Below, piece after piece: positions 1,906 to 41,953 of a DNA stretch of 42,177 nucleotides. Origin of the DNA: a virus; the IMG/VR virus record IMGVR_UViG_3300024259_000073, positions 1 through 42,177 of that record; one strand, 5' to 3'. The first letter of the stretch is position 1. The number at the start of each line of letters is the position of its first letter. The notes under the pieces are model-generated. The model saw nothing but the letters and a program-made list of their open reading frames with translations, did not search any database and was not told the origin of the DNA. The translations under genes and the position numbers were made by a program.

Positions 1906-3285
1906 ATGGCTCAAAAATACGTACCAAAACCACAAGAACTAGTCCTAGACTTCCTCGAATCAGAAGATAGAATGAGGGATGTTCTTTATGTTGAAGGTAT
2001 GGACGCCCTATACCAATGGCAGGGTGGCTGGTATAAACATATTTCAGACAAACAAATGGCAAAGGAACTCTACGCCTTTTGTTTGAAAAACCATTCCGAT
2101 GTTCGTATGACTAGAAACTTTATAGTTGACCTTGTAAGCCAACTAAAGTGGCAAGTCTTGAACACCGTCGACCAACTCCCAAACCATTACATCTGCTTCC
2201 GTGACTGCTTGCTTAACACCGAGACTTGGAAAACTGAAAAACACAACCGAGATAAGATATCAATCTTCTATTTACCATACACATACAAAGACTTACCAGA
2301 CGAACATCCGGCTTGGGACAAGTTCCTTGCCACCTCACTTGTTGATAGGGAGGACAAGACTAAAGAAGACAACGAACTAAAGTTCGTTGTTCAAGAAATG
2401 TTTGGGGACTTCCTGCTCCCAAACCTGAAGTCCGAAGCGGCTTACTTTTTAGTAGGCGGTGGGGCGAATGGCAAATCTGTTATGCTTGACATTGCCACCA
2501 AGATTATAGGCTCACAATTTATCAGCTCTATGAGTATAGAAACATTGACGACCGATAAGTTTTCAGCACCCTCTCTTATAGGTATGCGTGTCAACCTATC
2601 TAACGAAGACGAGTCTAAGTTCATCAAGGCTGATAAATTCAAAGCTCTAGTCACCGGCGATACAATATCTGCCGAACGTAAATTTGGTGACAGGTTTGAT
2701 TTCCGTCCAACTTGCAAGTTTGTCTTTGCTAGTAATAAGATACCAACATTCTCTGACCTGAATTTTGGAACTATGAGACGTGTGCATATCATTCCGTTTA
2801 ACCAGAGGTTTGATAAACATAATCCGCTGACCGACAAGACAATCCGTGCCAAGATAATGGAAGAACTGCCGGCCATAGTTAAGTGGGCGATTACTGGTGC
2901 CCAAAGGCTTCAGGAAAACGATTACGAACACTCTCCATCAGTTCAAATGGATTCTGCTAAAGAAGATTTCCAAGGCGATATTTCATCAGCAGTCTTGTTC
3001 TTCCGTGAGAATTATGTTGTAGATTCACAATCTTGGACATCCAACACTGACCTTTATGGTCATTATAAGGCTTGGTGTGAAGAAGTTGGTAAGAAACCAT
3101 TTGCTATGGCGAATTTTGGTAAAGACCTTATGACATCATTTCCTGAACTTGAAAATAAAGTGAGGCGTGTTGAGGGTAACCAAACACGTGGTAAGACAGT
3201 TATGCTCCGCAACTACGAAGACGAACATAATCTTGTTGAGGGTGCTAATACCGATGGAATTAGTATTGATGAGATACCTATATGA
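1906..3285 (+). CDS. P4/D5-type SF3 helicase (replication initiator)
   Basis: The 459-aa protein has an N-terminal D5-like region (about 1-150) and then an SF3 helicase core. Walker A GGGANGKS lies near residues 184-191, an acidic NEDES stretch consistent with Walker B near 230, and the sensor-like FVFASNKIP near 272. A C-terminal winged-helix-like part follows. Phage/plasmid primase-helicases of the P4 family unwind DNA after binding origin repeats. The protein is shorter than P4 alpha and shows no primase catalytic domain. The next gene overlaps it in ATGA and carries a CHC2-like domain, so primase functions may be split. The likely target is the dyad at 41460-41718. Family assignment is firm; the origin link is inference. 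Confidence 0.92.
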   Translation: MAQKYVPKPQELVLDFLESEDRMRDVLYVEGMDALYQWQGGWYKHISDKQMAKELYAFCLKNHSDVRMTRNFIVDLVSQLKWQVLNTVDQLPNHYICFRDCLLNTETWKTEKHNRDKISIFYLPYTYKDLPDEHPAWDKFLATSLVDREDKTKEDNELKFVVQEMFGDFLLPNLKSEAAYFLVGGGANGKSVMLDIATKIIGSQFISSMSIETLTTDKFSAPSLIGMRVNLSNEDESKFIKADKFKALVTGDTISAERKFGDRFDFRPTCKFVFASNKIPTFSDLNFGTMRRVHIIPFNQRFDKHNPLTDKTIRAKIMEELPAIVKWAITGAQRLQENDYEHSPSVQMDSAKEDFQGDISSAVLFFRENYVVDSQSWTSNTDLYGHYKAWCEEVGKKPFAMANFGKDLMTSFPELENKVRRVEGNQTRGKTVMLRNYEDEHNLVEGANTDGISIDEIPI

Positions 3286-3821
3286 CCCTAAGTGAACAAA
3301 TACAAACCTTTGGAAAGGAAGCCACAGAAGACGCTATCCAATCCATAATACTCGACCACCAATATCACCTGTCACTTATAGAGACAGAGAATGAGTTTAT
3401 ATTCCAAGATTATCTTAAGAACTCTGAACCATCAATCGACTGGGTATTCAACTACCGCATGGCACAAAACAAAGAAGCCGAACGCAAACTCCGTAAGCTA
3501 ATCCGCAAGTGGGAGGTAAAATTAAAGATAGCACGTGGCGAACTAGACGAATCTAAAGTCCTCATAGACCTAGACGTAATTAAACAAGTCCAGATAACCC
3601 AATTCCTTGGTGAGCCAAGTATGCGTGGTAGTAAGAAACTCCACTACAAAGCACCGTGGCGGCCAGAAGAAAAGCAAGGCTCACTAGTTATCTTCACAGA
3701 CCAGAATAGGTTCTACGACTTCGGCGACCACGATAAAAAAGGTTCTGTCATTGACTTTATAATGCTGACTGAGGGACTAGAATTTAAGGAGGCAGTTAAT
3801 TATCTAAAAAACTACTTATGA
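3282..3821 (+). CDS. CHC2-like (zinc-less) primase-associated protein, 179 aa
   Basis: The N-terminal two thirds is helical, charged and unassigned. The last 65 residues follow the DnaG-type CHC2 zinc-finger layout: an APWRPEEK segment where CPFH is usual, then FYDFGDHDKKGSVIDFIML and the closing EGLEFKEAVNYL helix. The zinc ligands are replaced, as in other mobile-element CHC2 relatives with a DFG-type core. No Toprim or archaeo-eukaryotic primase domain follows, so on its own this is a template-binding module rather than a primase. It overlaps the helicase gene by four bases, which suggests translational coupling and a joint role in replication initiation. Confidence 0.72.
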   Translation: MTLSEQIQTFGKEATEDAIQSIILDHQYHLSLIETENEFIFQDYLKNSEPSIDWVFNYRMAQNKEAERKLRKLIRKWEVKLKIARGELDESKVLIDLDVIKQVQITQFLGEPSMRGSKKLHYKAPWRPEEKQGSLVIFTDQNRFYDFGDHDKKGSVIDFIMLTEGLEFKEAVNYLKNYL

Positions 3822-7603: not shown

Positions 7604-8572
7604 ATGAAATACTTATCATTATTTAGTGGTATCGGAGGATTTGAACTCGGTATCCAACAAGCGTATGAAAGTAATAATAAACCCCAAGTTGAGGGATTAC
7701 CAACCGAAGACAATTTGTCCAACATTAATAGCGACAATGTACAAAGAACCCCCACTTGTATTGGATATTCCGAAATCGACAAGTATGCCTGCCAAATCTA
7801 TAACAAACAATTCGCTAACCACAAAAACTATGGAGACATCACTACCATTGAACCTAAAGAACTCCCAGACTTTGACCTCTTGGTTGGAGGATTTCCTTGC
7901 CAAGCATTCAGCGTTGCTGGAAAAAGGAAAGGATTTGACGATACAAGAGGAACACTCTTTTTTGACATCGCAAGGATTTGTGCAGAAAAAAGACCAAGAC
8001 TTGTGGTACTTGAAAATGTTAAAGGTCTACTATCTCACGACAGCGGCAAAACTTTCCAGACAATACTTGGGGTTCTCTCCGACTTGGGGTATAGAGTTGA
8101 ATGGCAGGTACTTAACAGCAAAAATTTCGGAGTTCCCCAGAATAGGGAAAGAGTGTTCATTATCGGACATCTTAGAGGAACAAGTAGACCAGAAGTATTT
8201 CCTATCGGAGAAGCAGCAAGAGTATCTAAAAAAGAGAATAAAAAAGGGGATGGCAAACTTGCGGCAACCCTAAGAGCTGGTGGTAATTTAGAACGAAATG
8301 CTTTAATGATAAAAGATAGAAGGCAATCAGATGAAATAAGAATTTATAAAGATATATCAGAAACAGTTAGTTCAACATATGGAACTGGTGGTGGAAATAC
8401 ACCAATAGTTATGCCAGCAATTCGAAGACTAACTCCCACAGAATGTGAACGCTTACAAGGATTCCCTGATGGCTGGACAGAGGGGTTATCAGATACGCAG
8501 CGATATAAAACACTTGGTAATGCTGTCACAGTAAATGTAATTAAAGCAATATTTAAAAATATATGGATATAA
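7604..8572 (+). CDS. DNA C5-cytosine methyltransferase (Dcm family), 322 aa
   Basis: Canonical motifs are present: I FSGIGGFELG (7-16), IV GGFPCQAFSVAGKRKGF with catalytic Cys99, VI ENVKG (137-141), VIII QNRERVFIIG (179-188), a target-recognition region (about 200-270), IX RRLTPTECERLQGFP and X TLGNAVTVNV. The enzyme adds a methyl group to C5 of cytosine using S-adenosylmethionine. No restriction enzyme is adjacent, so it is an orphan enzyme, probably shielding the phage genome from host restriction. An extra stretch of about 25 residues (25-50) separates motif I from motif II. The leader is AT-rich without SD. Confidence 0.95.
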   Translation: MKYLSLFSGIGGFELGIQQAYESNNKPQVEGLPTEDNLSNINSDNVQRTPTCIGYSEIDKYACQIYNKQFANHKNYGDITTIEPKELPDFDLLVGGFPCQAFSVAGKRKGFDDTRGTLFFDIARICAEKRPRLVVLENVKGLLSHDSGKTFQTILGVLSDLGYRVEWQVLNSKNFGVPQNRERVFIIGHLRGTSRPEVFPIGEAARVSKKENKKGDGKLAATLRAGGNLERNALMIKDRRQSDEIRIYKDISETVSSTYGTGGGNTPIVMPAIRRLTPTECERLQGFPDGWTEGLSDTQRYKTLGNAVTVNVIKAIFKNIWI

Positions 8573-11068: not shown

Positions 11069-11734
11069 ATGAGTTATGGTATAAAAAATATAATAAAGTC
11101 AGGCCAAAAGTTTAATAGGCTTACTGTTATTAAAGAAGTACCAGGCGAGACTAATCGTAAGGTATTATGTCAATGTGATTGTGGTAATAAATCCACCTCA
11201 TCTTATACTAATATCAAAAATGGTCATACTAAAAGTTGTGGTTGTTTGGGTAGAGAAAATGCTGCTAATAGACAATATAAACATGGTTTAGCTAGAACAA
11301 AATTTTATGATGTTTATTCTAAAATAAAATCACGTTGTGAAAATAAAAATGACAAGGATTATAAAAATTATGGTGGCCGTGGTATTAGATGTTTCTGGAA
11401 ATCGTTTAAAGAATTTAAAGATGATATGTATAATGATTATTTAAAGCATAAAAAAAATAATACTGGTACCAACACTAGAATAGACCGCATAGATAATGAT
11501 GGTAATTATTGTAAAGAAAATTGTAAATGGTCTACTCATAAAGAACAAGCCAGGAATAGAAGGGGCAATCATTTATTAACTTATAAAGGTAAAATTCAAA
11601 CTTTAACTGAATGGGCAGAAGAAGTTAAATTACCAAGACACACTTTAAATAATAGAATAGTAAAATATGGTTGGTCTATAAAGAGAGCGTTGACTTTACC
11701 AAATAAATTCTATGCCAAAAATAAAACGCCATGA
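11069..11734 (+). CDS. HNH homing-type endonuclease, 221 aa
   Basis: An N-terminal zinc-ribbon-like part (CQCDCG, then SCGCLG) precedes GGRGIRCF...FKEFKDDM and the HNH core TRIDRIDNDGNYCKENCKW with the following THKEQARNRR. The C-terminal LTEWAEEVKLPRHTLNNRI segment resembles a NUMOD-type DNA-binding motif. This is the layout of freestanding phage HNH homing endonucleases. It is the most AT-rich gene around, has its own promoter, and its end overlaps the next gene by 23 bases: signs of a mobile gene inserted between the helicase and the RecU-like gene. Confidence 0.88.
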   Translation: MSYGIKNIIKSGQKFNRLTVIKEVPGETNRKVLCQCDCGNKSTSSYTNIKNGHTKSCGCLGRENAANRQYKHGLARTKFYDVYSKIKSRCENKNDKDYKNYGGRGIRCFWKSFKEFKDDMYNDYLKHKKNNTGTNTRIDRIDNDGNYCKENCKWSTHKEQARNRRGNHLLTYKGKIQTLTEWAEEVKLPRHTLNNRIVKYGWSIKRALTLPNKFYAKNKTP

Positions 11735-41080: not shown

Positions 41081-41299
41081 TAGCGACGGCTTAAAACAGC
41101 AACGGCTTAAACTGTCAACGGGATAAGTTTAAACTACTGACAACTACTAATACAGCACGCCACCAGACGCCACCAGACGCCGTCTAAGCCCTTTAAATGC
41201 TATACACGAGCCCCAGTCCTGACGCAATGCTATATATCTAGCCAAAAAATTTTCGCTCGCTCGCTGTCGCTCGCTCGCCGGCCGAGGCTAAAGCCTCGA
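41081..41299. repeat. Repeat-rich intergenic stretch before the origin-like dyad
   Basis: GACGGCTTAAA and AACGGCTTAAA near 41085 and 41100 resemble the CAAGCCGTC boxes of the dyad. CGCCACCAGA occurs twice in tandem near 41159. A GC-rich part contains GCTCGCTCGC twice (near 41254 and 41269). Hairpins CGAGGC/GCCTCG (41283-41298) and GTCGGC/GCCGAC (41310-41326) follow. No gene is seen. Confidence 0.65.
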
Positions 41300-41329: not shown

Positions 41330-41416
41330 TTGACACCTACCAACATAATCAGTATAACCTACCGTTTCCTTGACAATATACACCAACAATCAGTATAACA
41401 TACCGTTTTCTTGACA
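41330..41416 (+). promoter_or_regulatory. Tandem promoter-like repeats, about 40-nt period
   Basis: Two copies carry TTGACA (41330-41335; 41370-41375), spacers of 17 and 18, and TATAAC (41353-41358; 41394-41399), and share AATCAGTATAAC and TACCGTTT. A third TTGACA (41411-41416) follows at the same period without a -10. They point rightwards into the dyad. They could be replication-priming promoters or tandem binding sites. Confidence 0.7.
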
Positions 41417-41459
41417 ATATCCACTGATTATCCTCAAACCAACAACACAACAAAGCCAG

Positions 41460-41718
41460 TGCGTCGACGGCTTGATGATAGCTGGAAAGTTCTGCCGTAT
41501 ACACCTTTTGACCAATAAACATCGCATCAAAGTGCTTGCTGTATACGGGTGTACGGCAAAAACGCTAACTTATATAACTTTATTATATATAATATCTACT
41601 ATTCTTAAATATACTATAACAGCCGTATACCCGTATACAGCAGGTGTTTTGACCAATAGAAATAGAGGGTTTGCTGTGTACGGCAAAAAAGTTTTGCTAT
41701 CAACAAGCCGTCGACGCA
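41460..41718. other. 259-bp dyad with AT-rich core, replication origin candidate
   Basis: Three sets of inverted arms share one centre near 41589. Outer arms: 41460-41482 with 41696-41718, 22 of 23 positions. Middle: GCCGTATAC (41494-41502) with GTGTACGGC (41676-41684). Inner: GCTGTATACGGGTGTACGGC (41538-41557) with 41622-41641, 19 of 20. The 64-nt core (41558-41621) is nearly all A and T and includes TATTATATATAATA. TTTTGACCAATA occurs twice (41506, 41647). SF3 initiators of P4 type bind such repeats beside an AT-rich region. Frames across it on both strands look spurious. Confidence 0.75.
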
Positions 41719-41900: not shown

Positions 41901-41953
41901 CAAGCCGTCAAGCCGTCAAAAAGACTTGACAATCTCAGCCCATCTGCTATAAT
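41901..41953 (+). promoter_or_regulatory. Rightward early promoter with two upstream boxes
   Basis: TTGACA (41926-41931), 16-nt spacer, TATAAT (41948-41953). The spacer nearly repeats that of the promoter at 1737. Two overlapping CAAGCCGTC boxes (41901-41909, 41909-41917) sit just upstream; the same 9-mer forms the outer arms of the dyad. If the genome is circular, this promoter reads into the small-gene operon starting at 104, with a leader of about 320 nt. Confidence 0.8.

Follow-up and report, generated by a model that had tools for sequence, protein, structure and literature searches.

A concentric dyad around an AT-rich core as the probable replication origin of an uncultured phage with a D5/SF3 helicase

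Results

Gene layout around the dyad

The window, by which we mean the whole stretch of DNA analyzed, comprises all 42,177 bases of an IMG/VR record that is classed as linear. Its genes form two divergent blocks, an early block running rightward from 104 to ~12.1 kb and a late block running leftward from 40.7 to 12.3 kb, and the intergenic region between them contains a large dyad. The late block carries terminase, portal and head genes, and the early block encodes a D5/SF3 helicase, a DnaG-type zinc ribbon, an exonuclease-like protein, a cytosine methyltransferase and an SF2-type helicase. The cytosine-C5 methyltransferase gene (7604-8572) and an HNH endonuclease gene (11069-11734) both lie in the early region. 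No DNA polymerase was found in the window among the families listed, scans with Rfam and for tRNAs gave no matches, and the exact DnaA box TTATNCACA is absent from the window. Two 37-nt direct repeats (41347-41383 and 41388-41424), 92% identical and each containing CTTGACAATAT, stand between the dyad and the late genes and may act as promoter or operator repeats. In L003, a phage with 99.96% identity to the window, the contig ends at window position 41240, and this break adjoins CTCGCTCGCTGTCGCTCGCTCG (window 41240-41280).

Table 1. Features of the dyad and of the genes and promoter discussed with it (window coordinates).
Feature	Position	Strand	Remarks
Outer left arm, holds box variant GTCGACGGC	41460..41482	+	22/23 positions symmetric with 41696-41718
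Middle left box TGCCGTATACA	41493..41503	+	Partner 41675-41685, common centre
Direct repeat TTTTGACCAATA, copy 1	41506..41522	+	88% identity over 17 nt with 41647-41663
Inner left arm, tandem boxes GTATACGG and GTGTACGG, period 8	41538..41557	+	Inverted match to 41622-41641
Core, 64 nt, proposed melting site	41558..41621	.	84% AT
Inner right arm, two boxes in tandem, period 8	41622..41641	-	
Direct repeat TTTTGACCAATA, copy 2	41647..41663	+	
Middle right box	41675..41685	-	
Outer right arm	41696..41718	-	Partner of 41460-41482
Outer box CAAGCCGTC twice in tandem (41901, 41909), period 8	41901..41917	+	9 bp before the early-promoter -35
Early promoter, TTGACA-16-TATAAT	41926..41953	+	TG before -10
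Outlying box-like sequence TTTGCCATACACGGCAA	42126..42142	+	76% match
Stand-alone D5/SF3 helicase, 459 aa, proposed initiator	1906..3285	+	PHROG/Pfam hits
Possible primase part, 179 aa, DnaG-type CHC2 zinc ribbon	3282..3821	+	Profile hits

Geometry of the dyad

A sequence-only reading of this DNA had described three nested pairs of inverted arms with one centre, a 64-nt AT-rich core, a directly repeated 12-mer, two outer boxes beside the early promoter and an outlying echo of the inner box. All of these elements were recovered (Table 1). The outer and middle pairs are centred at 41589.0 and the inner pair at 41589.5, placing all centres within 0.5 bp, and the AT content of the core is reached by only 0.14% of equal-size windows in the record. 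The 12-mer TTTTGACCAATA, which starts at 41506 and 41647, is repeated directly rather than inverted, and the element is therefore not simply a decayed inverted duplication. Exact boxes cluster at a single place in the window.

The same reading had named telomere resolution as an alternative. Nested inverted repeats like those of the dyad are found at telomere-resolution sites, integrase attachment sites and partition centromeres, but its 64-nt core is non-palindromic except for a short central stretch, and integrase, protelomerase and ParA/ParB families are all missing from the complete Pfam list for the 57 ORFs of the window. With neither a central perfect palindrome nor a protelomerase family among the Pfam hits, we rejected a telomere-resolution site; the lack of integrase and ParA/ParB families among the Pfam hits led us to reject an attachment site and a centromere as well. 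We consider a role of any of these three kinds extremely improbable.

Chance expectation and folding

The concentric-dyad score of 28 at 41589 is the highest in the record and marks its strongest long-loop dyad; the runner-up scores 14-16. Shuffling gave maxima of 17 (300 shuffles of the intergenic region) and 19 (20 shuffles of the whole record). When short-loop hairpins were left out, scores of at least 28 occurred in just 2 of 140 real control loci (2.1 Mb). Very strong dyads are present in the unrelated control loci L027 (centre 1979, score 50) and L126 (centre 6185.5, score 38). As single-stranded DNA the dyad folds at -60 kcal/mol (z = -9.5), and such folding beat shuffles in all seven phages considered, the window and the six relatives described below (z -2.1 to -6.8).

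A turn in GC skew near 41.6 kb had been predicted. The minimum at 38-40 kb agrees with this and the maximum lies at 11-12 kb, but the skew follows gene direction and is thus confounded; we judged it uninformative rather than independent support for an origin.

The phage-encoded helicase

Pfam matches in the 459-aa helicase are D5_N, DUF5906 and an RFX/Pox_D5 winged helix at residues 362-430. Relatives of the protein were retrieved by alignment query only; a single-sequence query gave none. An AlphaFold model built from 17 sequences had a mean pLDDT of 85.7, an earlier one from 4 sequences having been too poor for use, and in this model residues 361-430 show the H-S-H-H-S-S order of winged-helix elements. 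The top Foldseek match was the SaPI5 primase-helicase (7ola, TM 0.68-0.72), followed by relatives from ASFV and poxviruses. The predicted structure supports the 459-aa helicase as an initiator with its own putative origin-binding domain. The helicase gene would lie ~2.4 kb from the dyad if the record ends join, a distance that is an assumption because the record is linear.

The layout recurs in relatives with different boxes

Searches with TerL, portal and helicase uncovered six relatives that have the corresponding intergenic region (L004, G001, L083, L084, L117 and L142). In each, inverted sets of short repeats surround an AT-rich core in the same divergent intergenic region, with core AT contents of 78-89%. 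The box sequence differs in every relative and the dyads do not align with one another; the layout alone recurs. The expectation of a conserved dyad in related phages thus held for the arrangement, which occupies the same place in all six, and failed for the arm sequences, a lack of conservation that the sequence-only reading, taken to the letter, had counted as refuting an origin. A DNA search of the phage collection with the dyad region found no match, and neither did a search of viral contigs with the inner-arm pattern, so that no copies of the exact dyad at intermediate divergence are known.

L004 and G001 are concentric like the window, and the other four are looser. The L004 arms (5088-5107/5307-5326 and 5135-5166/5248-5279) share a single centre around an 81-nt core. 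G001 comprises L140 and L085, and its dyad spans the join of its contig ends: the inner arms in L140 (7847-7881/7965-7999) carry boxes GTGTACAC and enclose an 83-nt core, and the joined dyad scores 33. The end of L140 and the start of L085 overlap by 17 nt, which makes G001 circular, and a dyad that spans the join of a closed circle also argues against the telomere, attachment and centromere readings. G001 corresponds to IMGVR_UViG_3300028045_000032 (43.9 kb), a record classed as linear though circular by overlap.

L083 has three arm pairs with centres at 250-255.5 around a 95-nt core, and its box GTGCCAA occurs 11 times, every copy in the 8.9-kb locus falling in the dyad. L084 has TTGTGCGGAA boxes on either side of a 130-nt core. 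In L117, AGTGTAAC occurs seven times around a ~90-nt core, where every copy in the 11-kb locus is found, and L142 has AAAGTGGCATAAG and CTTATGCCACTTT, a perfect 13-bp match, around a 105-nt core. In shuffle tests the window, L004 and G001 lay beyond all shuffles, and L083 was narrowly above all 300. L084 gave p = 0.003 and L142 p = 0.013, but the top-scoring centre was not the assigned one in either; L117 gave p = 0.06. The dyad lies ~4-6 kb from the helicase gene on the same contig in L142, L117 and G001. No helicase was seen in L004, L083 or L084, all of which are fragments.

A GTG core is common to the boxes GTGTACGG, GTGTACAC, GTGTAAC, GTGGCATAA, GTGCCAA and GTGCGGAA, to P4 GGTGAACA and to Cch2 AAGTG. 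This likeness was noticed post hoc and misfits L004 and L150, and we regard it as suggestive.

Other repeats were seen near these dyads. Clusters of perfect DnaA boxes (TTATCCACA/TTATACACA) occur in L004 (4896-4980 and 2958-2977) and L117 (9129-9191). A palindrome like GCTAANNTTAGC, which could be a site for a host factor, flanks or neighbours the dyad in L142 (5530-5547/5687-5704), L117 (8465-8480 and 8654-8668) and L140 (7842-7855). TTGACA-N-TGTCAA palindromes are repeated in the intergenic regions of L084 (2627-2995) and L004 (5660-5780) and are probably operators.

The dyad accompanies the helicase rather than the packaging genes

A pac or cos site recognized by the small terminase would account for a dyad ~0.5-0.85 kb upstream of a terS-like gene, as it is placed in the clade. 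L142 speaks against this explanation. Its helicase, 41% identical to that of the window over 421 aa, is the sole detectable homolog of the window proteins, and its terminase and portal have no detectable homology to those of the window. L142 nevertheless retains the layout beside a non-homologous terminase, and the element therefore lacks the linkage to terminase that a packaging site would have.

Thirteen more distant relatives of the helicase, mostly primase-helicase fusions, bear on the same question. In 4 of the 13 (L146, L148, L150 and L151), the top long-loop dyad anywhere in the locus is found at most ~150 bp beyond the helicase stop codon, on its 3' side, against an expectation of ~2.7% each (binomial p ~3e-4, a test weakened because the 13 are partly interrelated). 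Inverted boxes GTGGC and GGTGTCC flank cores of 72-80 nt with 73-83% AT in L151 and L148. No dyad follows the helicase gene on its 3' side in L143, L144, L145 or L153. Because L142 shares only the helicase with the window, and because dyads also lie 3' of distant helicases, the element tracks the helicase and not packaging. We rejected a packaging site on these two grounds and consider it very improbable.

The dyad could also be an array of operators, at which a regulator would bind the boxes, loop the DNA and control the divergent early and late promoters. Its position between the divergent early and late operons and the two outer boxes immediately before the early promoter are in keeping with such a role. 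However, no promoter-like site was detected inside the dyad, an operator array has no need of an AT-rich core, and in distant relatives the dyad lies 3' of the helicase gene and not at divergent promoters. An operator array is accordingly an improbable explanation of the element. Initiators often autoregulate, so operator and origin roles may coexist, and the tandem CAAGCCGTC boxes suggest a possible autoregulation site through which the helicase would control its own operon.

Discussion

We consider it highly probable that the dyad is a phage replication origin with a P4/PICI-type initiator helicase. An origin linked to the 459-aa P4/D5-type SF3 helicase, as the sequence-only reading had proposed, is the best reading of the locus: the layout recurs in six relatives and near distant helicases. 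The closest precedents are the origins of P4, SaPI/PICI elements and pRN1, and the window element, which probably works like them, would add a new member to the wider class of origins that depend on D5/SF3 helicases.

The single centre had been thought unusual beside simple rows of iterons. That contrast does not stand: every PICI origin has an AT-rich region with a set of iterons on each side (PMC6092414), and in P4 ori1 two sets of octamers lie on either side of an AT stretch. The window too has two sets of boxes around an AT-rich region, its helicase has the SaPI5 primase-helicase as nearest solved fold, and, as in PICI/SaPI elements, the Rep-like helicase is encoded by the element itself and has a C-terminal domain, here a predicted winged helix. 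SaPI/PICI Rep binds via its C-terminal domain (PMC7581432). In PICIs, however, the origin is directly 3' of rep, a position found in L146, L148, L150 and L151, whereas the window dyad lies between the divergent operons, upstream of the early one and several kb ahead of the helicase gene. We therefore do not file the window element as a PICI origin, although it probably works like one. Further differences are that the window helicase has no fused primase, that the window is a tailed phage without a recognizable integrase and not a satellite island, and that its arms are more strictly concentric.

In P4 ori1 (NC_001609), octamers GGTGAACA in both orientations, spaced 9-11 bp apart, surround an AT stretch between divergent operons, and the alpha protein binds its repeats through a winged helix (PMC4234260). 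The window shares the P4-type combination of octamer iterons in both orientations, a location between divergent operons and an element-encoded SF3 helicase. Unlike the window dyad, ori1 is not concentric (p = 0.2) and has an AT core of ~35 nt; P4 also needs a second site, crr, and its alpha protein is fused to its primase. In SCCmec, the C-terminal domain of Cch2, another D5-type helicase, binds short iterons whose core is AAGTG (PMC7581432). This core resembles AAGTG in L117, G001 and L142, but Cch2 uses just three direct iterons located immediately downstream of its gene.

The pRN1 system raises the question of whether structure rather than sequence is recognized. Its initiator ORF904 is likewise an SF3 helicase with a winged helix, and its origin requires an intact stem-loop of poorly conserved sequence with a 58-nt loop (PMC4234260), similar in size to that of the window. 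An initiator of this kind would recognize the long imperfect hairpin, as a cruciform or in single-stranded DNA, and the strong stem-loops predicted in the window and its relatives are consistent with such recognition. Inverted box sets yield a hairpin even without a hairpin role, though, the boxes are not strictly symmetric in L083, L084, L117 and L142, and cruciform extrusion over a 64-nt centre is unfavourable. An origin recognized by structure is thus unlikely, if less so than the non-origin roles considered above. pRN1 itself differs from the window, which has repeated boxes, in having no iterons and in carrying its stem-loop 3' of its rep gene.

For the box-directed origin that we favour, the C-terminal winged helix of the helicase would bind GTGTACGG/GTATACGG and their variants in the two inverted sets, and one helicase ring would assemble on each side of the core. 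The AT-rich core between the rings would then be melted and two forks would depart in opposite directions; a primase of the phage or of the host would supply the primers, and the host polymerase would extend them. Winged-helix binding, ring formation and core melting are proposed by analogy with P4 alpha, SaPI Rep and Cch2 (PMC4234260, PMC6092414, PMC7581432).

More tentatively, the stand-alone helicase and its origin may be a separable pair in this lineage. The origin would have moved to the divergent promoter region and become strictly concentric with a long stem-loop, and the boxes would have changed along with the winged helix in every phage. Such an element would combine the iteron type of origin (P4/PICI) with the stem-loop type (pRN1) in one hybrid.

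The phage belongs to an undescribed lineage of uncultured phages, for which a defined origin and initiator would become available if the origin reading is true. Because each phage combines different boxes with a homologous winged helix, these phages would form a natural library for studying origin recognition by a widespread helicase family, whose nearest solved relatives include poxvirus D5.
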